Assembly (NCBI GenBank): GCA_001664505.1
Contig: CP011806.1
Coordinates: 1,579,528-1,643,527, forward strand
Source of the DNA: Acidobacteria bacterium Mor1
Lineage (GTDB): Bacteria; Acidobacteriota; Polarisedimenticolia; Polarisedimenticolales; Polarisedimenticolaceae
Length of the DNA stretch: 64,000 bases
Direction: 5' to 3'
A program made the position numbers and the translations under genes. This document shows positions 14,262-39,218 of this stretch, piece by piece. Each line of letters begins with the position of its first letter. The stretch's first letter is position 1. The notes under the pieces are model-generated. The model saw nothing but the letters and a program-made list of their open reading frames with translations, did not search any database and was not told the origin of the DNA.

Positions 14262-15485
14262 TTAACCTCGGGTCAGAGTTCGCGCAATATCGGTGCGGTA
14301 GGCCTGGATCGCGGGGATCAGCGCCGCGACCACACCGACCGCCGGCGCCAGCAGCACCAGCCACAGCTCCCGCGGGACCCAGAGCGCCCCGGTCAGCTCC
14401 ATTTGCCGGGCTTCCCGGGTCCAGCCGCCGAGGATCTCGGTGGCCAGGTGGCCCAGGGCCATACCCAAGAGGGTCCCCGCCAGGGCCAGGAGCAACCCCT
14501 CGAGCAGCACGTGGATCATCAGCCTGGCCCGGGAGGCGCCGAGGGTGCGCATGATCGCCAGGTCGTAGCGCCGGGAGCGCAGGGCGTTGTAGAGCGAGAT
14601 GAACAGGCTGAGCGCCGCGGTCAGGATCAGGATGCCGCCGAAGGCGCGGATCGCATCGAGGCCGACGCCGAGCAGCGAGAACATCCGCACCGTCTCCTTG
14701 GCCGGCGAGGCCGCCTGCATCGAGGTGTTGTTGTTGACGTAGGGGGGCAGCATCGCGGCGGCCAGAGGCGAGTCGGCGATCAGCAGCGCCGTCAGCTCCC
14801 TTCCTGGGGCCTTCATCTTCGGCATCTTCGTGCCCGGCTTCAGCTGGATCTTCGGTTTCTTCTCTTCGGGCTTCTCGTGGACCGCCCAGACCGTTTCCAC
14901 CGAGGTCAGCAGCACCCGGTCGATCACGCTGCCGGTCGGCTTCAGGATGCCGACGATGCGCAGGTGTTTGTGATCATGGTGATCCCCCTCGCCATGGAGG
15001 CCGTGGGCGCTGAAGATCTCGTCGCCGATCCCCAGGCCGGTCTCGGCGGCGACCCTGGAGCCGAGGACGATCTGCTCGATGCCGTCCCAGAACCCGCCCT
15101 CCGCCAGCTCGGCGCCGTAGAGATCCGCGTAGCCCGGTTCGGTGCCGACGATGCGGAACCCGCGGTAGCTGTCTCCCAGCGCCATGGGCACCGAGGTGAT
15201 CACCCCGTGCATCTCTCGGATCTTCTCCGCCTCTTCCAACGGGATGTTCCCGGTGGGCGTGTCCATGTGGTAGACCGCCGAGAGAATCAGCTGGATCGGG
15301 CTGCCCTTGGCGCCGATGACCACGTTGACCCCACCGGAGTTGCGCTCGAGGTTCTGGCGGAACTGGTGGCTGAACAGCAGCAGCACCACGATGGTGGCCA
15401 CGCCCAGCGCCAGCAGCAGCGTGTTGAGCAGCGTCTCCAGCGGACGGCGCCGGATGTACGAGAAGCTGAGTTCGGCCAGGTTCAT
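14262..15485 (-). CDS. FtsX/MacB-like ABC permease with a His-rich loop
   Basis: The 407-residue protein has one N-terminal membrane helix (about 17-39), a large periplasmic domain (40-275) and three C-terminal helices (about 280-305, 325-350, 370-400), the layout of FtsX-type permeases in LolCDE and MacB systems. LRSRRYDLAIMRTLGASR before the last helices is a family hallmark. Residues 161-174 (HGLHGEGDHHDHKH) in the periplasmic domain hold seven His and suggest metal binding. Such permeases do not pump substrate through a channel but drive periplasmic proteins or lipid transfer. Its start overlaps the ATPase stop (ATGA). The neighbours ZnuA and Zur imply a role under zinc limitation. Confidence 0.85.
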   Translation of the reverse strand: MNLAELSFSYIRRRPLETLLNTLLLALGVATIVVLLLFSHQFRQNLERNSGGVNVVIGAKGSPIQLILSAVYHMDTPTGNIPLEEAEKIREMHGVITSVPMALGDSYRGFRIVGTEPGYADLYGAELAEGGFWDGIEQIVLGSRVAAETGLGIGDEIFSAHGLHGEGDHHDHKHLRIVGILKPTGSVIDRVLLTSVETVWAVHEKPEEKKPKIQLKPGTKMPKMKAPGRELTALLIADSPLAAAMLPPYVNNNTSMQAASPAKETVRMFSLLGVGLDAIRAFGGILILTAALSLFISLYNALRSRRYDLAIMRTLGASRARLMIHVLLEGLLLALAGTLLGMALGHLATEILGGWTREARQMELTGALWVPRELWLVLLAPAVGVVAALIPAIQAYRTDIARTLTRG

Positions 15486-16111
15486 CCCAGATTCACCCGG
15501 CGCTCGAAGCGCTCCTTGACCCGGGTGTCGTGGGTCGCCACCACCAGGGTCGCGCCGCAGGCCTCGGCCTGGCCGAACAGCAGATCCAGCACCTGGCCGC
15601 TGCGCACGTCGTCGAGGCTCGCCGTCGGCTCGTCGGCCAGGATCAGCTTCGGTTCGTTGATCACCGCCCGGGCCAGGGTGACCCGCTGCTGCTCACCGAC
15701 CGAGAGTTCGCTCGGGTAGCGCCCCGCCTTGTCCCGCAGATCGAGCCGGGCGAGCACCGCGTCGGCGACGGCGCCGTCCTGAGACATCCCGGCCATGTAG
15801 CGGGCCAGGAGCAGGTTCTGCTTCACGGTGAGAGTCGCCAGCAGGTGCATCTGCTGGAATACGATTCCGATGTGGCGGCCACGGAAACGGTCGATCTCGC
15901 CGGCACCGATGGAGAGCAGGTCCCGGCCGGCAATCTCGACCTTGCCGGCACTGGGTCGCAGCAACGCCCCGAGAATGTGGAGCAGGGTCGTCTTGCCGCT
16001 GCCCGACAGGCCGAGCACCAGCAGATGCTCCCCCTGCCGCGCCTCGAGAGCGTCCAGCTGCAGCACCGCCTGTCCGTCGTAGCGATGTTCGATCTGACTC
16101 AGGGCAAACAA
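15482..16111 (-). CDS. LolD/MacB-type ABC transporter ATPase
   Basis: This 209-residue nucleotide-binding subunit powers the adjacent permease at the inner membrane. Walker A is GLSGSGKTT (34-42), the signature is LSVGEQQR (136-143) and Walker B with catalytic Glu is LILADEPT (156-163); the switch His is in VVATHD. The start is TTG with AGGAG about 10 bases upstream. The length is typical of LolD-like ATPases, somewhat short. It lies 13 bases after znuA and overlaps the permease gene by four bases. Confidence 0.92.
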   Translation of the reverse strand: MFALSQIEHRYDGQAVLQLDALEARQGEHLLVLGLSGSGKTTLLHILGALLRPSAGKVEIAGRDLLSIGAGEIDRFRGRHIGIVFQQMHLLATLTVKQNLLLARYMAGMSQDGAVADAVLARLDLRDKAGRYPSELSVGEQQRVTLARAVINEPKLILADEPTASLDDVRSGQVLDLLFGQAEACGATLVVATHDTRVKERFERRVNLG

Positions 16112-16124
16112 GGCTGCGCGGCTC

Positions 16125-16982
16125 CTAGAAGGACTCGATCAGGCGGTCGACCACCTGGGGCAGGTTTTCACTCCAGTCCCGGGCCAGCGGGTCGATGGCC
16201 ACCACCTCGCCACCGATATCCTGGGCCACGACCCGCGCGCTGTGTTCGACCATCTGAGGCTGTACGAACACCGTGCGCAGTTGTTCGCTGCGGGCCAACT
16301 CCACCAGTTCCGCAAGCTGCTTGGGGCTGGGCTCCTTCTCCCCTTCCTCGATGGCGGTCTGGATCAGACCGTAGCGGTCGGCCAGATAGCCCCAGGCGGG
16401 GTGGAAGACCAGGAAGCGGCGGCCACGATAGGGCTCGAGTTTGGCCTCGAGCTCTCGGTCGAGGCGGTCGATCTCTTCTAGTACGGCTTCGAGGTTGGTC
16501 GTGAACTCGTCGGCGTGTTCGGGCAAGGCCCGCATCAACGCGTCGCCGCTGCGCCTGGCCAGGGTTGCCGCCGCCCGGGGCGAGACCCACACATGGGGAT
16601 CGTGGTGGTGAAACTCCACCCCTTGGCAGCCGGTGACGATCTCCATGTCGGGATTGGCCGCGACGAAGCGATCATGCCAATCCCCCTCGAAGACCAGGTC
16701 GGGATGGCCGATCTTGATCCAGGCGACCGCCGCCGAGACTTCCTTCATCTGCGCCATGCTCGGCTCGAAGGTGTGGGGGTTCCCCCCAGGCGGGATCATT
16801 ACCTCCACGTCGACCCGGTCGCCGGCGATGCGCTCGACGAAGAACGCCTGGGGTTCGACGGAGACGACGACCACCGGCCGGGTCTCGACGCTGCCGCAGC
16901 CGGCGAGCAGGAGCGCCGCAAACACCGCGGCCACGGTGAGGCACGCCCTGGTGCTGAAGCGCTCAGCCTGCACAGCGATCAC
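16125..16982 (-). CDS. znuA: Zinc/manganese ABC transporter substrate-binding lipoprotein
   Basis: The 285-residue cluster A-I binding protein captures Zn(II), or Mn(II), in the periplasm. A lipobox LLAGC with Cys29 indicates lipid anchoring. Likely ligands are His70 (NPHTFEPS), His130 (HDPHVWVSP), His194 (FHPAWGY) and Asp264 (AIDPLARDW). A three-His patch at 125-127 precedes the second ligand, but the long His-rich loop of many ZnuA proteins is missing. The start is GTG 16982, overlapping the end of the Fur-family gene by 20 bases; GTG 16973 is an alternative. No ZnuB or ZnuC lies beside it, but both are about 7 kb away on the same strand. Confidence 0.9.
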   Translation of the reverse strand: MIAVQAERFSTRACLTVAAVFAALLLAGCGSVETRPVVVVSVEPQAFFVERIAGDRVDVEVMIPPGGNPHTFEPSMAQMKEVSAAVAWIKIGHPDLVFEGDWHDRFVAANPDMEIVTGCQGVEFHHHDPHVWVSPRAAATLARRSGDALMRALPEHADEFTTNLEAVLEEIDRLDRELEAKLEPYRGRRFLVFHPAWGYLADRYGLIQTAIEEGEKEPSPKQLAELVELARSEQLRTVFVQPQMVEHSARVVAQDIGGEVVAIDPLARDWSENLPQVVDRLIESF

Positions 16983-17334
16983 ACCGGCCGTAGAGCACGA
17001 TCTCGTGGGACTCGAGCTCGAAGCCTTCGGGAGACAATTTGCCGATGGCCCCGGGACAGGCGTCGACGTCGTACACCCGGTCGCAACTGCGGCAATGAAA
17101 ATGATGATGGTGCTGCTTGCCGGCCCGCTCGTAGCGGGCCGGGGCGCCGGGCAGCTCCACCGGGCTCAGGAAGCCGCTGGTCGTCAGGGTCTTGACCGCG
17201 CGGTAGACGGTGGCGATGCCCAGGCCGGGGACCTCCCGGCGGGCCTCACGCAGGATTTCCTGGGGGCTCAGGGGCCGAGCGCTGGCCTCGAAGACCCTTC
17301 GGATCGCATCACGCTGGTTGGTCTGCCGCTGCAT
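16963..17334 (-). CDS. zur: Fur family metalloregulator, probably Zur
   Basis: The 123-residue DNA-binding repressor has a winged helix (recognition region about 38-55, GIATVYRAVKTL) and a dimerisation domain. Metal-site residues are obvious: HHHHFHC (75-81), Cys84, and the pair Cys118 and Cys121, the structural zinc site of many Fur and Zur proteins. It is shorter than typical Fur (about 140-150 residues). It leads the operon zur-znuA-ATPase-permease-DUF3299, so it probably represses zinc acquisition when zinc is sufficient. A near-palindromic box lies nine bases upstream of its ATG, suggesting autoregulation. A Fe or Mn sensor is possible, but the context favours zinc. Confidence 0.85.
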   Translation of the reverse strand: MQRQTNQRDAIRRVFEASARPLSPQEILREARREVPGLGIATVYRAVKTLTTSGFLSPVELPGAPARYERAGKQHHHHFHCRSCDRVYDVDACPGAIGKLSPEGFELESHEIVLYGRCDRCAG

Positions 17335-17342
17335 CGACGGAA

Positions 17343-17358
17343 TGATAATCGATTCTCA
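17343..17358. promoter_or_regulatory. Near-palindromic Fur/Zur-like box upstream of zur
   Basis: TGATAATCGATTCTCA reads as TGANAATCGATTNTCA on both strands, so 14 of 16 positions are symmetric. It resembles Fur-family boxes (TGATAAT arms) and sits nine bases upstream of the zur start, inside the expected promoter. Confidence 0.6.
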
Positions 17359-23728: not shown

Positions 23729-24544
23729 TCAACGCTGACGGACGGCCTTCGCACCGCTGCTCAACCCGTACAGCACCGCCGCGATCAGGATGATCAGCGG
23801 CCCGGTGGGCACGTTAACCTCGGACAGCGCGTACGCCGCGAACAAGCCCGTCGTGCAGCAGAAGGCGCCGATCAACGTCGCCAGCAGCATCATGCCGCCG
23901 ATGTTGCGCGCCCACTGGCGGGCGATCGAGGCAGGGATGGTCAGCAAGGCGATCACCAGGATCACCCCGACCACGCGGATCAGCGTCACCACCGCAAGGG
24001 ACGTCAGTAGGTAGAGGAGCTGACGGATGAAGGTCACCGGCACACCGGCGACCCGGGCGTGATCCTCGTCGAAGGCGACGGCCAGCAACTCCTTGCGGAA
24101 CAGGCCGACGACGCAGACCACGAACACATCCAGCGCGCCGACGAAGGTCAGGTAACCCTCGGGCACGAACAGGATGCTGCCGAACAGGTAGCTCATCAGG
24201 TCCGGGGCGTAGCCCGGCGACAGCGAGATGAACAGCATGCCCAGGGCCATGCCCACCGACCAGACCATGGCGATCAGGGTGTCCACTCCGGTGCGCAGCC
24301 GCTGCTCCAGCACGCCGATACCGAAACCCGAGGCGATGGCAAAGACCGCGGCACCCGCCATCGGCTGCACGCCCATCAGATAGCCGAGCCCGACCCCGCC
24401 GAAGGCCGCGTGGGACAGCCCCCCGGAGATCGACGCCATCCGCTTGACCACCACGTAGGTACCGACCACGCCACAGGCCACACTTGCCAGCAGCCCTGCC
24501 GTCAACGCACGCTGGAAGAACGGGTACTGGAGCGCTTCGAGCAC
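23729..24544 (-). CDS. znuB: Zinc/manganese ABC transporter permease
   Basis: The 271-residue inner-membrane subunit of a cluster A-I metal importer has seven to eight hydrophobic segments. VKRMASISGGLSHAAFGGVGLGYL (about 34-57) is the family hallmark, and the ATPase-coupling loop is near DEDHARVAGVPV. It starts at GTG immediately after the znuC stop and is the last gene of the five-gene operon. It must pair with ZnuC next door, and most plausibly with the ZnuA encoded at 16125-16982. The metal could also be manganese or iron; Zn is favoured by the neighbours. Confidence 0.92.
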   Translation of the reverse strand: MLEALQYPFFQRALTAGLLASVACGVVGTYVVVKRMASISGGLSHAAFGGVGLGYLMGVQPMAGAAVFAIASGFGIGVLEQRLRTGVDTLIAMVWSVGMALGMLFISLSPGYAPDLMSYLFGSILFVPEGYLTFVGALDVFVVCVVGLFRKELLAVAFDEDHARVAGVPVTFIRQLLYLLTSLAVVTLIRVVGVILVIALLTIPASIARQWARNIGGMMLLATLIGAFCCTTGLFAAYALSEVNVPTGPLIILIAAVLYGLSSGAKAVRQR

Positions 24545-25306
24545 CTAGCCCTCCGCCTCGGCCGAGGCGCCATCCCGGGACGTCGAGGGCGCTGCGGCGT
24601 AGCCGTAGACATGCTCCAGCATCTCAGGGGTCACCCCGCCTGCCGGATGGAAGTGCACTCGCCTGTTGAGACACGCGATGCTGTCGACGTACTGCGACAC
24701 CAGCGCCACATCATGGGCCACCAGCACCACGGTCATGGTCTCGCTCAGTTCTTTCAACAGCGGGTAGAGCCGGCCGCCGAAATGCGAATCCAACGCGGCA
24801 TTGGGTTCGTCCAGCATCAGGATCCGGGCGTCCATGGCCAGGGCCCGGGCGATCAGCACCCGCTGGAGCTGGCCTCCCGAGAGCCGGCCGATCTGCCGGT
24901 CGGCGAAGGGAGAAACTTCCATCCGCTCCATGGCCTCGGCGGCCCGGGCACGATCGGCATCATCGTATCGGCGGGTCAGGCCTCGGTTGCCCAGACGGCC
25001 CATCAGCACCACGTCGCACACGGTGATCGGGAAGCTGCGGTCGAAGCTCGATTGCTGAGGCAGGTAGGCCACATCCCCCCGAGCGCGCTCGGGAGGCTCT
25101 CCATAGATCGCAACGGAACCACGGTCCGGCTTCCACAGACCCAACATCACCCGCAGCAGCACACTCTTGCCGCCGCCGTTGGGACCGATGATGCCGAGGA
25201 AACTCCCCTCGGCTACGGTGAAGCTGACCTCCTCGAGTACAGGCGTGCGAGCGATGGAAAGCGAGACGTCGCGGACCTCGATGGCCGGGCGGTCAGCGGC
25301 CGCCAT
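24545..25306 (-). CDS. znuC: Zinc/manganese ABC transporter ATPase
   Basis: The 253-residue ATPase powers ZnuB. Walker A is GPNGGGKSV, the signature is LSGGQLQRV, Walker B with catalytic Glu is ILMLDEPNAALD, and the switch His is in VLVAHDVALV. LPQQSSFDRSFPITVCDVVLMGR is typical of this subfamily. I choose ATG 25306, which has AGGA eight bases upstream; GTG 25321 in frame is an alternative. Either start overlaps the upstream HflK-like gene, implying coupled translation. The C-terminal region has a short tail (HFHPAGG) that could bind metal. Confidence 0.92.
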   Translation of the reverse strand: MAAADRPAIEVRDVSLSIARTPVLEEVSFTVAEGSFLGIIGPNGGGKSVLLRVMLGLWKPDRGSVAIYGEPPERARGDVAYLPQQSSFDRSFPITVCDVVLMGRLGNRGLTRRYDDADRARAAEAMERMEVSPFADRQIGRLSGGQLQRVLIARALAMDARILMLDEPNAALDSHFGGRLYPLLKELSETMTVVLVAHDVALVSQYVDSIACLNRRVHFHPAGGVTPEMLEHVYGYAAAPSTSRDGASAEAEG

Positions 25307-26330
25307 CGTTCCGGTCCTCACGGGGCGTCAGCCCGAATAGCCCCGAGGAGGGAACTCTGAGGGGCGCCTCCTCGGCCGGGGCCGGGCGTGGCTGGGTCAG
25401 GTTGACCTCGATGTCCGGTTTCTGTCCCGGCGCCAACAGCACCACCCGGGCCCGCGGAAGCACCGTGCGCACCATGTCCAGGAACAGATCATTGCGGGCC
25501 TGGCCCGGAATCGCCCGGTTGCGGGCCAGCACGCTACGGAAGCGTTGGGCAGCGCCGCGAGCGCTCTCGGTCCGTGCCTTGGCCGCGGCGTTGGCCTCCG
25601 AAAGCAGGCGCCCGGCCTCACCCCGTGCCAGCGACACGGTTCGTCCACGCTCACTCTCGGCGTCGTTGATCAACCGCGCGGCCTCGGCCCGGGCATCGCT
25701 GACGCTGCGGAAGGCGGTCGCGGCTTCCACCGGCGGGCTGACCGACTGCAGGTTGAGGGAGACGACGGTGATGCCGGCGTCGTAGCGGTCCATCGCCTCC
25801 TGGGCGTGGCGCCGCACCTCGTTTTCGATCTCCGCCTTGCCGGCAGTCAGCACGTCGTCGATCTGCATTCCGGCGACCCGCTCCACCAACCCGGCGCGAA
25901 CCGCCTGAGCCAGGAGCGCGGACGCGTCGTCCACCCCGAACAGGTATCGTCCGAGGCCGGTGATCTTGTACTGGGCTACCAGCCGCACATCGATCACGTT
26001 CTCGTCGCCGGTCAGCAGGGACAGCTCCGGCAACTGGTCGCCGCGAATCTCGAGGCTCTGCACCTCGCCGGTGGGCGCTCGCTCGACCCGGTAGATCGGA
26101 CCCAGCGCCAGCCCCCAACCCGGCTCGACGGCGTCGTCGACCAGCTTGCCCATCCGCAGGAGCGCCCCGCTCTCGGACACGCCCACGGTGTAGAACCCGG
26201 ACATCGCCCAGACGGCGAGCACCACCCCGAGCAAGCCGATCCCGGCGACGCCGCGATGGCGCCCCAGGAATTCCGCCGCGCCCCGAATCAGGCGCACGCT
26301 CAGCGGAGAGTTTGCCGGCTCACTTGCCAC
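25293..26330 (-). CDS. hflK: HflK-like SPFH/band 7 protein
   Basis: The 345-residue protein has a single membrane helix (about 26-47) and a periplasmic SPFH domain with the HflK hallmark LTGDENVIDVRLVAQYKI. A long Ala/Arg/Glu-rich helix follows (about 215-275). A Pro-rich C-terminus overlaps znuC. HflK and HflC form a cage around the FtsH protease in other bacteria; no ftsH is in this window. It starts at GTG, overlapping the hflC gene end by 11 bases. Its position between hflC and znuC links this scaffold to metal uptake here. Confidence 0.85.
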   Translation of the reverse strand: MASEPANSPLSVRLIRGAAEFLGRHRGVAGIGLLGVVLAVWAMSGFYTVGVSESGALLRMGKLVDDAVEPGWGLALGPIYRVERAPTGEVQSLEIRGDQLPELSLLTGDENVIDVRLVAQYKITGLGRYLFGVDDASALLAQAVRAGLVERVAGMQIDDVLTAGKAEIENEVRRHAQEAMDRYDAGITVVSLNLQSVSPPVEAATAFRSVSDARAEAARLINDAESERGRTVSLARGEAGRLLSEANAAAKARTESARGAAQRFRSVLARNRAIPGQARNDLFLDMVRTVLPRARVVLLAPGQKPDIEVNLTQPRPAPAEEAPLRVPSSGLFGLTPREDRNDGGR

Positions 26331-27192
26331 TCAACACCTTCATCAAGCGGGAATCGGATTCGAGGAAGATCGTGGTCTGGTCGTCGATGATCTTGTCGTA
26401 GCTCTCGAGAGTGCGCAGGAAGCGGTAGAACTCCGGATCCTTGGCGTAGGCCTCACCCAGCTCGGCGAGCGCCGCGGCCTCCCCTTCGCCGCGGATCACC
26501 TCGGCCTCGGCACGAGCGGTGGCCAGGGTTTCCTCACGTTCCTTGGCCGCTTCTGCCTCGATCTTGAGCGCTTCTTCCTCACCCTCACTGCGGTACTTGG
26601 TAGCGATGCGGGCGCGCTCGGCGCGCATGCGGTCGATCACGCTGGCCCGGTTCTGGGCGGGCAGGTTGAAGCCGTTGATCTGCAGGTCGACCACCTCGAG
26701 GCCGAAATCCTTACGGGCGACCTCGTCGACCTCGCGGGCGACGCGGGCGGCCAGGTCCCGCAACCGCACTTTGCCCGGCTCGACGTTGATGAAGCCCTCC
26801 ATCGGTTCGCTACCGACGGCGGCGCCGAGCTTGGCCTGGGAGACATCGAGCAGCCGCGCTTCAGCCTGGCTGCGCGTCTTGACCGTCCGGGCGAAGTGCA
26901 GCGGATCGGCGACCCGCCAGCAGAGGAACGTGTCGACCAGGACGTTCTTCTTGTCCAGGGTCAGGAACTCCATCGGTTCGTTGTCGAAGACCAGGAGCCG
27001 GGAGTCGAGACGCATCACCCGGTCGACCGGCCAGGGCGCCTTGAAGTGCAGGCCCGGGCCCGAAGCCTCCTCGGCCGGTTTACCGAAACGGGTCACGATG
27101 GCCAACTCGGTCTCGTCCACGGTAAAGACCGCGGTCCGCACCCAGAGCAGCACCAGCGCCGCGACGATCAACAATGCCCAGTTGAAGCGCAT
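26320..27192 (-). CDS. hflC: HflC-like SPFH/band 7 protein
   Basis: The 290-residue protein has an N-terminal membrane helix (about 5-22) and an SPFH domain with ETELAIVTRFGKP and GPGLHFKAPWPVD. The signature helix VIDRMRAERARIATKYRSEG and the end DPEFYRFLRTLESYDKI are diagnostic for HflC. It lies 11 bases after the permease-SPFH fusion and overlaps the HflK gene. In E. coli HflC partners HflK; here there are two HflK-like partners, one of them fused to a transporter. Confidence 0.9.
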   Translation of the reverse strand: MRFNWALLIVAALVLLWVRTAVFTVDETELAIVTRFGKPAEEASGPGLHFKAPWPVDRVMRLDSRLLVFDNEPMEFLTLDKKNVLVDTFLCWRVADPLHFARTVKTRSQAEARLLDVSQAKLGAAVGSEPMEGFINVEPGKVRLRDLAARVAREVDEVARKDFGLEVVDLQINGFNLPAQNRASVIDRMRAERARIATKYRSEGEEEALKIEAEAAKEREETLATARAEAEVIRGEGEAAALAELGEAYAKDPEFYRFLRTLESYDKIIDDQTTIFLESDSRLMKVLSGK

Positions 27193-27203: not shown

Positions 27204-29414
27204 TCAGTTCTCGTTGTCCGGCGGGAGCGCGGGGCTGTCGCGCCAGAGTACGACCCCCTTGCCCGCCGACCCCGAGGGCAGAATGAACTTTTCCTTGTCG
27301 GCCAACACCCGTTCCGATGTCTCGAGCCAGAGCAGGTCCTTGAGAATGCGCCGATGCCTGGCGTAGACCTCGGCCTGGCGCATGAACCCGCGAGCCTCGC
27401 CGGCCGCGACCTCGGTGGCGGAGTCCGCCTCCGCCCGGGCCCGGGCGATCTCCCGGACCGCCTCGCCCCGCGCCCGGGGTACCACGCCGGCCTGCTGCCG
27501 GCGGGCCTCGTGGATGCGGGTCTCGCGATCCTCCTTGGCGCTCGATACGTCACGGAAGGCGTAGACCGCCTCCTGCGGCGGATGCACGTCGACCACGTGA
27601 ACCGCGTCGATCCGCACCCCGGCGCCCAGCTCCTTGAGCCGGAGACCGGCGTCATCTCGGATGAACGCTTCCAGCTCCGGACGTTTCGACGTCAAAAGCT
27701 GATCCAGGGTGTGCCCGGCGACGAACTCCCGGGCCGATGCCATGGCATAGAGCCGTACGAGATCGGCGCGCTTGCCGACCTTGTAGAAGAAGGCGTAGGG
27801 GTCGTCGAGCCCCCAGTGCACGGTGAAACTCAGCTCGAGCAGCTTCTCGTCGCCGGCGATGTAGCCGGTCTCGTCGGGCTGGGCGTTCATGGCGGCGACG
27901 GGACTGTGCCACTGACTCGGGTCAGCCGACAACCGGAGCTGACGGCGCCGCTCGACCAGGGTCAGGTCGGTGCGGAAGCCGGCGTCGCTCTTGCGCGGGT
28001 AGTCCACGCGGCGCATGGTGAAGCTGCCGAAGGGGGCCGGCGGCACCCAGTGCATGCCCGGGCCGAGGTCCTTCCACGTCACCTTGCCGAACAGCTGACC
28101 GTAGCCGGCGTGGCCCGGCGGCACGATCTGGACACCGCTGGCGGCGTAGATCACCGCGGCGACAACCAAGACCAGGCCCAGCTGACGGGCGCGGCCGCCG
28201 CTGGCAGCCGAGCGGAAGCTCGCCGGCAGCACGGCGGTCAGCGAGTCACGCACCGTGGCCCAACCCTCCCGGGCCACGCCGTGGCGGAAACGCCAGAGCA
28301 CCAGCCCGCCGAGGATCACCCCCGAGAGAATCTCGATCCAGGAATAGCCGTGCTCCATCGCCATCGAGAACCGATCGAGCACCTGCCATCCGGTGACGGC
28401 GATCAGCGCATCGAGAGCCAGGCCGCAGGCCAGCGACCCGAGGATGATGCCGAACAGGAAGGCGCGGACGAAGCCCCGGCCGAAGTTGCGGGTCAGGATC
28501 ACGATCGCCGCAGCGTTGGTCGCCGGTCCGGCCATCAGCATCACCAACGCCGCGCCGGGACTGATCCCCTTGGCGATCAACGCGGCCGCGACCGGAGTCG
28601 AGGCGGAGGCGCAGATGTACATCGGGACCGAAGCCACCAGGATCAGCAGCATCGGCACGATGCCCGAACCGAGGCCCCAAACCGAGAGGTCGTCGGGGAA
28701 CAGCGCCGTGATCAGCGCCGTCAACCCGATGCCGATCACGAGCCAGAAGGCGATATCGTCGAGGAGTTCGGTGAAGGCGTAGCGCCCGGCCCGGCGTACG
28801 ATGGAGCCCAACGCCGGCGGCTCCGGCTGACCTTCGACCACCGGCGGGCGGCGGCCGGTGAAGCCGTACCACAGCGCCTTGAGGAAGGTCCCGACTCCGA
28901 CACTCTCCCCGTCGTCATGATCGTGGTCGTGCCCCGCGTGGGAATCCTCGCCGCTCTTGCAGCAATGGTCCGGCTCCTCGACCTCCTGGGCGCGGGCCGC
29001 CTCCCCGGGCCAGGCGATGGCCAGGATGCTGGCCCCGATGGCGGTGACCAGACTGGCCACCGGGCGGACGATGGCCATCAGCGGACCCATCAGGCCCCAG
29101 GTCAACAGGATCGAGTCGGCTCCCGACTCGGGCGTCGTGATCAGGAAGGAGAGGGAGGCCGGCTTGCTGGCGCCCTTCTTCTTGAGCTCGATGGCCAGGG
29201 GCACCACGCCGCAGCTACAGATCGGTAGCGGCACGCCGAACACCGCAGCCCGGGCTGCCGAGAGCAGCCCCTCGCCTCCCATCCAGCGTTGGATCGCCTG
29301 CCGCGGCAGCAAGACGTGCAGGAACCCGGCGGCGGTCAGGCCGAGCAAGACGTACGGCGCCGCCAGAAGAAAGACGTTCAACGCGGCGGCCAGGATGGTC
29401 CAGACGAGCTGCAA
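27204..29414 (-). CDS. SO_0444-type Cu/Zn efflux permease fused to an HflK-like SPFH domain
   Basis: One 736-residue frame holds two domains. Residues 1-380 are a DUF318/YraQ-type permease of the SO_0444 Cu/Zn efflux type: two helical bundles, PLPICSCG (64-71, Cys66 and Cys68), FLITTPESGADSIL, and the second-half motif MYICASASTPVAAALI (265-280). The cytosolic or periplasmic linker between bundles carries Cys151, Cys152 and a His/Asp run HAGHDHDHDD (159-168). After a helix at 411-427, residues 430-640 form an SPFH domain with GPGMHWVPPAPFG and ARGEAVREIARARAEADSAT-like helix. The start is TTG. It is first in an operon with hflC, hflK, znuC and znuB. The predicted role is metal export anchored to an SPFH microdomain. 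Confidence 0.85.
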   Translation of the reverse strand: MQLVWTILAAALNVFLLAAPYVLLGLTAAGFLHVLLPRQAIQRWMGGEGLLSAARAAVFGVPLPICSCGVVPLAIELKKKGASKPASLSFLITTPESGADSILLTWGLMGPLMAIVRPVASLVTAIGASILAIAWPGEAARAQEVEEPDHCCKSGEDSHAGHDHDHDDGESVGVGTFLKALWYGFTGRRPPVVEGQPEPPALGSIVRRAGRYAFTELLDDIAFWLVIGIGLTALITALFPDDLSVWGLGSGIVPMLLILVASVPMYICASASTPVAAALIAKGISPGAALVMLMAGPATNAAAIVILTRNFGRGFVRAFLFGIILGSLACGLALDALIAVTGWQVLDRFSMAMEHGYSWIEILSGVILGGLVLWRFRHGVAREGWATVRDSLTAVLPASFRSAASGGRARQLGLVLVVAAVIYAASGVQIVPPGHAGYGQLFGKVTWKDLGPGMHWVPPAPFGSFTMRRVDYPRKSDAGFRTDLTLVERRRQLRLSADPSQWHSPVAAMNAQPDETGYIAGDEKLLELSFTVHWGLDDPYAFFYKVGKRADLVRLYAMASAREFVAGHTLDQLLTSKRPELEAFIRDDAGLRLKELGAGVRIDAVHVVDVHPPQEAVYAFRDVSSAKEDRETRIHEARRQQAGVVPRARGEAVREIARARAEADSATEVAAGEARGFMRQAEVYARHRRILKDLLWLETSERVLADKEKFILPSGSAGKGVVLWRDSPALPPDNEN

Positions 29415-29567: not shown

Positions 29568-29590
29568 CGCCCGACACGGCAATGAAAAAC

Positions 29591-29604
29591 GGGAGCGCGC
29601 TCCC
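29591..29604. promoter_or_regulatory. Perfect 14-base palindrome upstream of the spondin-like gene
   Basis: GGGAGCGCGCTCCC is fully symmetric and ends 25 bases before the ATG at 29630. It may be an operator or, in the mRNA, a hairpin near the ribosome site. Confidence 0.35.
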
Positions 29605-29629
29605 CCTATGCACCCTAGGAGAGATTCCG

Positions 29630-30304
29630 ATGAACCGAGGAATAAAGGTCGCGATCGTGGCGTTCGCTTTGATGGTTGGATTCAGCGCCATGGCGGCGGA
29701 GTTCGAGGTCGAGATCACCAACATCACCCGAGGACAGACCTTCACGCCGATCCTGGTCGTGGCCCACGACCCGGATATCGCCCTGTTCAAAGTCGGTGAG
29801 CCCGCGCTTCCGGAGCTCGCCGAACTGGCCGAGTCCGGCGCCACCGGCCCCCTCGACGCTTTGCTGAACACCCTGCCCCAGGTCGGCGCCACCGCCGCGG
29901 GCACCGGGCTGCTCGGCCCCGGCGAGACCACCACCATCGTCGTCGACGCCGGCGGCAAGTTCAACCAGATCAGCTTCGCCGGCATGCTGATCCCGACCAA
30001 CGACACCTTCGTCGCCATCGACAGCGTGCGCATCCCTCAGGGGAACCAGCGCAAGGAGGTGTACGCCATCGCCTACGACGCCGGCAGTGAAGCCAACGAC
30101 CAGGATTGCGTCAACATGCCGGGCCCCCGCTGCCCCGGTGGACAGGGCTCGTCGGAGCCGGCCGACAGCGATGAAGGCTATGTCTATGTCGGCAACGGTT
30201 TCCACACCCTGCCGCAAAACGAAGGCGAGACGATTCTCGGGCCGCTGGTCTACGACTGGAGAAACCCGGTCGCCCGCGTGAAGATCAGCCGCGTCCGCAA
30301 GTAA
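29630..30304 (+). CDS. Secreted spondin_N-domain protein
   Basis: The ATG at 29630 follows AGGAGAG and gives 224 residues with a clean signal peptide (about 1-22, AMA-AE). An in-frame ATG at 29582 has no ribosome site. FEVEITNITRGQTFTPILVVAHDPDIALF and the Leu/Ala-rich LPELAELAESGATGPL match bacterial spondin N-terminal domain proteins, which are exported and may bind calcium or the cell surface. The C-terminal part has a Cys pair (DCVNMPGPRC). It is followed by an ECF sigma/anti-sigma pair 70 bases downstream on the same strand. Confidence 0.8.
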   Translation: MNRGIKVAIVAFALMVGFSAMAAEFEVEITNITRGQTFTPILVVAHDPDIALFKVGEPALPELAELAESGATGPLDALLNTLPQVGATAAGTGLLGPGETTTIVVDAGGKFNQISFAGMLIPTNDTFVAIDSVRIPQGNQRKEVYAIAYDAGSEANDQDCVNMPGPRCPGGQGSSEPADSDEGYVYVGNGFHTLPQNEGETILGPLVYDWRNPVARVKISRVRK

Positions 30305-30374
30305 GTAGTTTTTGAAACGCCCGGCGGCGCGAATCCGTGCCGCCGGGTTCGACCGATCTAGAGGGGATACCGGC

Positions 30375-30920
30375 TTGGCCACAGCGGCCGAAATGCGAAC
30401 CGACTTCGAGCGCACGGCCATGCCGTGCGTCCCGTCGTTGGCGCGGGCCGCTCGACGCTTCAGCCCCGGCGGAGACCCCGATGATCTGGTCCAGGAGACG
30501 CTGCTCAAGGCCTTCCGCACCTACGGAAACTTCAAGCACGGTACGAATTGCAAGGCCTGGCTCTTCTCCATCCTGCGCTCGGTGGTTCTGAATCAGAAGC
30601 GCAGTCACGTCCGCAAGCCTCCGATGGAGTCGATCGGCGGCCCGGACGAAAAGGAGGCGGTGATGCCCCTTGCTTCCAACGAAGGTCGCGGCGAAGATCG
30701 TCGTCGCGACGAGGTCCGCGAGGCCTTCTCGCGGCTCGATGCCGACCTGCGCTGGATCCTGCTGCTGGTCGATGTCGAAGAGTTTTCCTACGCGGAGGTC
30801 GGCCGCATTCTCGACTGCCCCGTCGGAACGGTTTCATCCAGGGTCTACCGGGCCCGCCAGTCCCTGCAGGACCAACTGCAGTCGCTGGGCGGCCCGCGAC
30901 CCCAGGTACATCCTCGATGA
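30375..30920 (+). CDS. ECF RNA polymerase sigma factor
   Basis: I choose TTG 30375 (GAGGGG eight bases upstream), giving 181 residues; an upstream TTG at 30312 or the ATG at 30393 are alternatives. Region 2 is DPDDLVQETLLKAFRTYGNF, and region 4 with its helix-turn-helix is YAEVGRILDCPVGTVSSRVYRAR. The linker between them is long and charged. It directs transcription of a stress or envelope regulon. Its stop overlaps the ATG of the anti-sigma gene (ATGA), the usual co-translated pair. Confidence 0.9.
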   Translation: MATAAEMRTDFERTAMPCVPSLARAARRFSPGGDPDDLVQETLLKAFRTYGNFKHGTNCKAWLFSILRSVVLNQKRSHVRKPPMESIGGPDEKEAVMPLASNEGRGEDRRRDEVREAFSRLDADLRWILLLVDVEEFSYAEVGRILDCPVGTVSSRVYRARQSLQDQLQSLGGPRPQVHPR

Positions 30921-38501: not shown

Positions 38502-39218
38502 ATGACCGGCTTTCTCATGCTCGGCCTGCTGCTGGGCCTCCGTCACGCGCTGGATGCGGACCACCTGGCGGCGGTAGGGGCCCTGGCCAGCGGCCGCAGC
38601 GACGTAAAGGAAATCTCCCGGCTGGGCCTCTTCTGGGGTGTCGGCCACGCGCTGGTGCTGGGTCTGGTCGGCGGAAGCGCGCTACTCCTGGGGCGGGTCA
38701 TCGACGAGGGGTTGGCCTCGACCCTGGAACTGGGCGTCGGCCTGATGCTGCTCTGGCTCGGCGGCCAGGTGATCTGGCGGCTGTGGCGCGACCGGGTGCA
38801 CTTCCACGCCCACCGCCATGGAGACGACGCCCCGCACTTCCACGCTCACAGCCACCGGGGCGAAGGGGCTCACGCTCAGAGCGACCATGCCCACAGCCAC
38901 GCCCGCGGGATCACCGTGCGGGCGCTGCTGGTCGGCATGATGCACGGCATGGCCGGCTCCGCTGCAGTCGTGGTGCTCTCCGGCGGACAGGCGCCCTCGG
39001 CACTGGCCGGCCTGGCCTACCTGTTGCTCTTCGGCGCCGGATCGATCGTCGGGATGACCGCCCTCAGCGCGATCATCGCCGTGCCTCTGAACCGTGCGGC
39101 ACGGCGCCTGACCTGGAGCTACCGGTTGCTTCAGGCCGCCGTCGGCGTCTTCACCCTGGCGGTCGGCATCCAGGTCGTCCGCGAAACCTTCCCCGGCGCC
39201 GCGGAGTTCCTCGGCTGA
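38502..39218 (+). CDS. NiCoT-like nickel/cobalt transporter
   Basis: The 238-residue membrane protein carries the family signature HAxxADH at RHALDADHLAA (His15, Asp20, His21: HX4DH). About six helices are visible, and a cytoplasmic or periplasmic loop (100-133) contains 12 His in alternating HxH pattern, likely a metal sensor or chaperone site. It probably moves Ni(II) or Co(II); some short relatives act as exporters. No urease, hydrogenase or cobalamin gene is in the window. It starts one base after the S9 peptidase stop, an unexpected partner. Confidence 0.85.
   Translation: MTGFLMLGLLLGLRHALDADHLAAVGALASGRSDVKEISRLGLFWGVGHALVLGLVGGSALLLGRVIDEGLASTLELGVGLMLLWLGGQVIWRLWRDRVHFHAHRHGDDAPHFHAHSHRGEGAHAQSDHAHSHARGITVRALLVGMMHGMAGSAAVVVLSGGQAPSALAGLAYLLLFGAGSIVGMTALSAIIAVPLNRAARRLTWSYRLLQAAVGVFTLAVGIQVVRETFPGAAEFLG

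Follow-up and report, generated by a model that had tools for sequence, protein, structure and literature searches.

An SO_0444-type permease fused to an HflK-type SPFH domain heads a three-gene cassette beside zinc-uptake genes in an acidobacterium

The window analysed here, a stretch of 64,000 nucleotides from Acidobacteria bacterium Mor1, contains one unbroken 736-codon frame on the minus strand (29414-27204; 744 codons from stop to stop), whose Pfam and NCBIfam matches are those of an SO_0444-type permease fused to an HflK-type SPFH domain. Its TTG is the sole start codon downstream of the preceding stop, and the GC content by codon position (0.69/0.49/0.90) has the pattern of a minus-strand coding frame; the plus strand of 27204-29414 holds a different frame. 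The original prediction, made from the letters, had found this uninterrupted frame but had omitted its strand. The source genome is a single contig of 5.985 Mb that is 99.98% complete, and full-length relatives of the fusion, 44-50% identical to it, are present in independent assemblies, so that a chance or frameshift join fails as an explanation. An assembly or annotation artefact that joined two genes, which the prediction itself had raised along with homologues that are always split, is practically out of the question, because this complete one-contig genome has no such error and the identical junction recurs in about 30 loci of separate assemblies and phyla. The homologues, too, are not invariably split.

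On sequence, the N-terminal half of the protein belongs to the SO_0444 family. Residues 12-373 (28296..29381, minus strand), delimited from NCBIfam, motifs and the AlphaFold model, score 356.5 bits on the NCBIfam SO_0444 Cu/Zn efflux model, above its curated cut-off of 300, and residues 14-333 match the Pfam ArsP_1 permease (E 1.5e-32). The DUF318/SO_0444-type permease that had been predicted is borne out, with PICSCG starting at residue 64 and with ICASASTPV and a CC pair also in place. PxCSC and C(A/N)xxSTP are kept across SO_0444 fusions, and C66, S67, C68, C268, S272, T273 and P274 are invariant in 28 of them. The score above the cut-off and the PxCSC and CASASTP motifs are shared with the known family (NF033936; Shewanella oneidensis SO_0444), whose members stop after the permease (~360-510 aa in most Acidobacteriota matches), whereas the fusion adds an SPFH domain and two further SPFH genes.

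A loop of residues 145-170 (28905..28982, minus strand), disordered in the AlphaFold model, carries GHDHDHDD and CC, the His/Asp linker and two cysteines noted originally, and is predicted from its motifs, the model and the alternation of loop charges to lie on the cytoplasmic side; a His-rich loop is present in 16 of 29 SO_0444 fusions. The membrane helix ahead of the SPFH domain (residues 407-431; 28122..28196, minus strand), placed from the model and loop charge, follows a strongly positive loop (mean K+R of 7.7 versus D+E of 2.0 in 28 sequences). This charge implies that the loop is cytoplasmic and that the SPFH domain would be periplasmic, like that of HflK. The single-chain AlphaFold model (mean pLDDT 79) predicts a permease helix pattern that is repeated in two halves, the disordered His loop (residues 145-169), the membrane helix and, after it, a long coiled coil attached to the SPFH domain; the arrangement of these domains is unsure because the pTM is 0.56.

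As had been anticipated, the helix leads into an SPFH domain, with a Pfam Band_7/SPFH match at residues 430-640 (E 2.4e-16). Together with its coiled coil, the HflK-type SPFH domain spans residues 430-715 (27270..28127, minus strand) according to Pfam, NCBIfam, a PDB profile and Foldseek. Residues 424-722 match the profile of E. coli HflK (PDB 7vhp) with E 1.6e-53, and the nearest solved structures in Foldseek are HflK chains (E 2e-12). The fusion scores 115 bits on the NCBIfam hflK model, below the cut-off of 159.4. A separate HflKC-like SPFH pair is found in the source genome (C1:3081636-3083161). The SPFH half is therefore HflK-like without being filed as hflK, as its score stays under the curated cut-off and the housekeeping copy of the genome is a different gene.

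The fusion gene opens a run of five minus-strand genes separated by small or zero gaps. It is followed by a 290-aa HflC-like SPFH gene that scores above the curated hflC cut-off (26320..27192), a second HflK-like SPFH gene of 345 aa (25293..26330), whose start overlaps gene 2 and which at 168 bits passes the hflK cut-off of 159.4, a ZnuC/AztA-like ABC ATPase gene that overlaps gene 3 (24545..25321), and a gene for a ZnuB/AztB-like ABC-3 family metal permease (23729..24544); all four were assigned from Pfam and NCBIfam. The last two genes match ABC_tran and ABC-3, and their best curated models are the zinc/manganese transporters AztA and AztB, both under the cut-offs. The original prediction had overlooked both additional SPFH genes as well as those for zinc uptake. 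Divergent from this run are genes for a spondin-domain protein (29582-30304) and an ECF sigma factor (30312-30920).

On the same strand, ~6 kb beyond the five-gene run and 8 kb from the three SPFH genes, is a gene for a 123-aa Fur-family regulator (16963..17334), a Zur candidate. The genes associated with it comprise the only ZnuA-family zinc-binding protein gene found in the genome (16125..16982), which lies on the same strand ~7 kb downstream of the ZnuC/ZnuB-like genes and in a different operon, and genes within 14262..16111 for an ABC ATPase (15482-16111, minus strand) and a MacB/FtsX-type permease (14262-15485, minus strand). A Fur-box-like inverted repeat, TGAGAATCGATTATCATT (17341..17358, minus strand), stands just upstream of the regulator gene and matches a pattern that was composed after the site was seen. 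This set resembles zinc-starvation genes and may form a zinc island with its own operon. A search of the window and related loci found no consistent Zur-type palindrome upstream of the three-gene SPFH cassettes, and the cassette promoter of the window has only a half-site-like ATGTTATAAAC. A NicO-type nickel/cobalt transporter gene lies elsewhere in the window, on the plus strand (38502-39215).

The whole fusion was absent from the other genomes of the window's class (41 genomes), and a scan of genome contigs with a single fusion protein returned no relative. By contrast, when 84,980 species genomes were scanned with the aligned SPFH heads of 12 fusions, 80 loci resulted, the best 80 of 501 candidates, so that locus counts come from a biased sample. 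Proteins with both domains of the SO_0444 fusion occupied about 30 loci and, among the matches listed, were distributed over at least nine phyla (Acidobacteriota, Myxococcota, Pseudomonadota, Latescibacterota, Verrucomicrobiota, Gemmatimonadota, Planctomycetota, Zixibacteria and LCP-89). Most SO_0444 proteins in 396 Acidobacteriota genomes are unfused, and the full fusion is present in a handful of them (G253, at 50% identity, G337, G199, G350, G051 and, in part, G086). Our search of the literature, from which subscription papers were mostly outside reach, turned up no account of a fusion between exporter and SPFH domain, in keeping with the original prediction, which knew of none. We conclude that this domain fusion is real, widespread and apparently undescribed so far. 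Plasmid hflK matches in Roseobacter and Vibrio were rejected as relatives, as they belong to two-gene hflKC pairs, some with nhaA, that have no metal exporter. Plasmids of Vibrio and Methylophaga carry additional hflK-hflC pairs (L182, 6854-10241; L184, 6902-10086) with nhaA or cation:proton antiporter genes downstream of them, possibly another link between SPFH proteins and transporters.

Two other families of exporter take the N-terminal position in the same cassette, P1B-type ATPases (PF00122) and cation diffusion facilitators (CDF; PF01545). The SPFH head stands behind a P1B-type ATPase in ~19 Acidobacteriota genomes, in frames of 930-1135 aa, and the ATPase was confirmed in the six that were read; these fusions have CPC and DKTGT motifs, several with His-rich N-termini. 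The third type, of 500-660 aa, combined Cation_efflux (CDF) with Band_7 in 9/9 proteins scanned, mostly has a zinc-type HxxxD pair, and accounted for 25 loci among the matches listed, which belong to Eisenbacteria, Zixibacteria, Spirochaetota, Alphaproteobacteria, Chloroflexota, Fidelibacterota and Actinomycetota. One carrier of the CDF form is Rhizobium metallidurans DSM 26575. Known CDF zinc exporters end in a cytoplasmic dimerisation domain, whereas in the fusions the SPFH domain stands in that place; the ~40 residues between exporter and SPFH domain imply that the usual dimerisation domain is missing. One CDF fusion is carried amid copper genes on a conjugative Aquibium plasmid. It was the sole annotated CDF fusion found, and its label, just 'FtsH protease activity modulator HflK', reveals a naming problem for exporter-SPFH fusions.

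In a tree of 82 heads of the first SPFH protein (SPFH1), whose root is not settled and in which some long branches are unsure, the SO_0444 fusions formed one clade (99/90), as did the P1B fusions (100/98) and the unfused HflKs (99/95), and the CDF fusions were scattered around these clades. This topology implies that the SPFH cassette endured while its exporters were exchanged, at least twice if the CDF fusions represent the older state. Some heads also carry a Trp-His/Asn insert, which lies at about residues 490-505 of the Mor1 fusion (QWHSPVAAMN) and reads EWN..H in P1B fusions and QWESRH in some CDF fusions. It was found in 22/62 fused heads versus 0/20 unfused heads, and its residues are suggestive of a metal site, though one that is not general among the fusions.

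The cassette has the order exporter-HflK fusion, HflC-like gene and second HflK-like gene. Among the matches listed, a third SPFH gene was present in 56/56 assessable fused loci, meaning those whose contig reaches far enough past the fusion, versus 0/16 unfused hflK loci (Fisher p ~2e-16, with related loci not being independent). Four loci scored as unfused with a third SPFH gene (L115, L140, L141 and L159) were set aside, because they start at a contig edge, which leaves their N-termini out of view. At L091 the fusion stands alone, and an HflC-like and HflK-like pair lies on another contig of that genome. Among the matches listed, a zinc importer was encoded beside 11/28 SO_0444 cassettes, not counting the window, versus 0/24 unfused loci; the importer is Znu in L090, L092 and L160 and ZIP in eight others. 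The CDF and P1B cassettes had no adjacent zinc importer in the loci read. Compared to the HflK-HflC cage that partners FtsH (PDB 7vhp, 7wi3, 9cz1, 9cz2), the SPFH domain, the preceding helix and the coiled coil are alike and gene 2 is HflC-like, but the exporter takes the place of the short cytoplasmic N-terminus, and there are three SPFH proteins instead of two. Moreover, the cassette has no ftsH nearby and coexists with ordinary hflKC: the source genome has its separate HflKC-like pair, and a separate ordinary hflK scoring > 265 bits was found in 16/20 cassette genomes, which implies that the cassette does not serve as the housekeeping partner of FtsH.

A search of Pseudomonadales returned mostly ordinary hflKC pairs. 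In two genomes only, G509 and G537 (loci L227 and L228), three SPFH genes are followed by a CPC-type P-type ATPase gene, which is the layout of PA2439-PA2435 in P. aeruginosa. The HmtA P-type ATPase operon of this species (PA2434-PA2439) resembles the cassette in its three SPFH genes and metal P-type ATPase and differs in that transporter and SPFH are separate genes and in that the N-terminus of SPFH1 is unrelated and multi-helix. In L227 (10341-12380) and L228 (6785-8923), this N-terminal domain has ~330 residues. The SPFH genes of the operon are probably those named PaFlo5-7 in PA14. Judged by gene content, the HmtA operon looks like a split form of the cassette, although orthology of SPFH1 is unproven because that of Pseudomonas is very divergent (branch of 3.7 in the SPFH1 tree). 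Both a znuA mutation and zinc depletion induce the PA2439-PA2435 operon, and its first promoter binds Zur in vitro. In one study, hmtA mRNA did not fall upon zinc addition, and a review leaves hmtA out of the Zur-bound promoters (PMC10393844). P. aeruginosa with three SPFH genes knocked out, probably those of this operon, showed normal growth under the conditions tested. The sections of the literature on the HmtA operon and P. aeruginosa SPFH proteins that we could consult mention no functional link between SPFH proteins and metal transport. The fusion cassette suggests what the SPFH genes of this zinc-regulated operon, so far without explanation, could do.

The role of SPFH rings is an open question, and most are known just by their partners, FtsH and NfeD among them. 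In this cassette, the gene itself specifies the cargo, a metal exporter that was swapped for an unrelated one, at least twice if the CDF state is the older, while the SPFH cassette stayed. We favour, with a probability of roughly 0.55, the interpretation that the fusion is a zinc (possibly Zn/Cu) exporter and a subunit of a dedicated three-component periplasmic SPFH ring that serves zinc homeostasis over simple detoxification. The permease would face the cytoplasm, where its His/Cys loop would catch metal, and its last cytoplasmic stretch would run into the HflK membrane helix and place the SPFH domain in the periplasm. There, the HflC-like and second HflK-like proteins could join the SPFH domain in an HflKC-type ring or dome, and the exporter would thus be kept at or inside a closed membrane microdomain. 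Metal would be released into, or beside, the SPFH-covered periplasmic space, as HflKC covers FtsH. In combination with the adjoining Znu-type importer, zinc may be moved to a protected periplasmic space for metallation of clients or re-import, and not merely dumped. Homeostasis is suggested by the Zn/Cu types of the exporters, the importers beside cassettes and the induction of the P. aeruginosa HmtA operon by zinc starvation. The broader proposal, that interchangeable exporters (SO_0444, CDF and P1B) are covalently built into a three-protein periplasmic SPFH dome that delivers metal to an enclosed space for metallation or recycling, is tentative. If it is true, such delivery would parallel, in bacteria, the way zinc is loaded in the secretory pathway of eukaryotes. 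The fusion makes the idea that an SPFH dome encloses transport directly testable.

The original prediction, a metal exporter that forms part of its own scaffold, holds in its structural half, since the fusion recurs and two other exporter families are joined to the same type of SPFH head; its functional half is where the alternatives lie. In plain detoxification, the SPFH proteins would only cluster exporters and substitute for the lost CDF dimerisation domain, the cassette would expel excess Zn/Cu, and the adjacent importers would be ordinary co-regulated zinc genes. All three fused families are usually taken as metal efflux and fit this explanation as well as homeostasis, growth under stress from Zn or Cu requires SO_0444 itself (PMC3219624), and the Aquibium cassette lies among copper genes. 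However, Znu or ZIP importers beside the SO_0444 cassettes and in the window are odd in an operon for detoxification, zinc starvation induces the apparent split form of Pseudomonas, and three different SPFH proteins are more than mere clustering would need. We therefore consider detoxification alone unlikely; it fits the operon context less well than zinc homeostasis does.

Still less probable is that, at low zinc, the transporter imports metal, the activity claimed for HmtA, with the SPFH ring gathering periplasmic metal for it. The zinc-depletion induction of the HmtA operon and the operons shared with Znu/ZIP importers are consistent with import, but it would require reversal in three unrelated families, and we know of no CDF or SO_0444 protein that imports. 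Overexpression of HmtA raised cell Zn/Cu and sensitivity and was taken as import, according to the review, which also states that the direction needs confirmation (PMC10393844). Similarly improbable is a specialised FtsH-type quality-control partner, in which the SPFH trio would govern turnover of the fused exporter by FtsH. The SPFH parts are HflK/HflC-like, and HflKC encloses FtsH and directs its proteolysis (PMC12048511), but the cassette lacks ftsH, most of the genomes have a separate ordinary hflK, and control of turnover leaves both the exchange among three exporter families and the zinc importers unexplained.

Other genes recur in the flanks of the cassettes. Downstream of many SO_0444 cassettes is a conserved trio encoding a Peripla_BP_6-type binding protein, a 162-aa protein without a Pfam match and a ZIP transporter (L226, 11185-13903; L097, L112, L113, L143, L151 and L157), of which the first two genes are present in L107 and L160. 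Acidobacteriota P1B cassettes have a conserved 251-aa membrane protein gene upstream (L080, 5647-6399; L081, 5403-6155) and a gene for a 157-159-aa protein downstream (L081, 11220-11696; L082, 8588-9058), both without Pfam matches. PpiC-type peptidyl-prolyl isomerase domains are common beside CDF cassettes (for example, L170, 16137-17831) and were found in 6/67 flanking genes of CDF and P1B cassettes; in the Aquibium cassette, an annotated peptidylprolyl isomerase gene lies immediately downstream.
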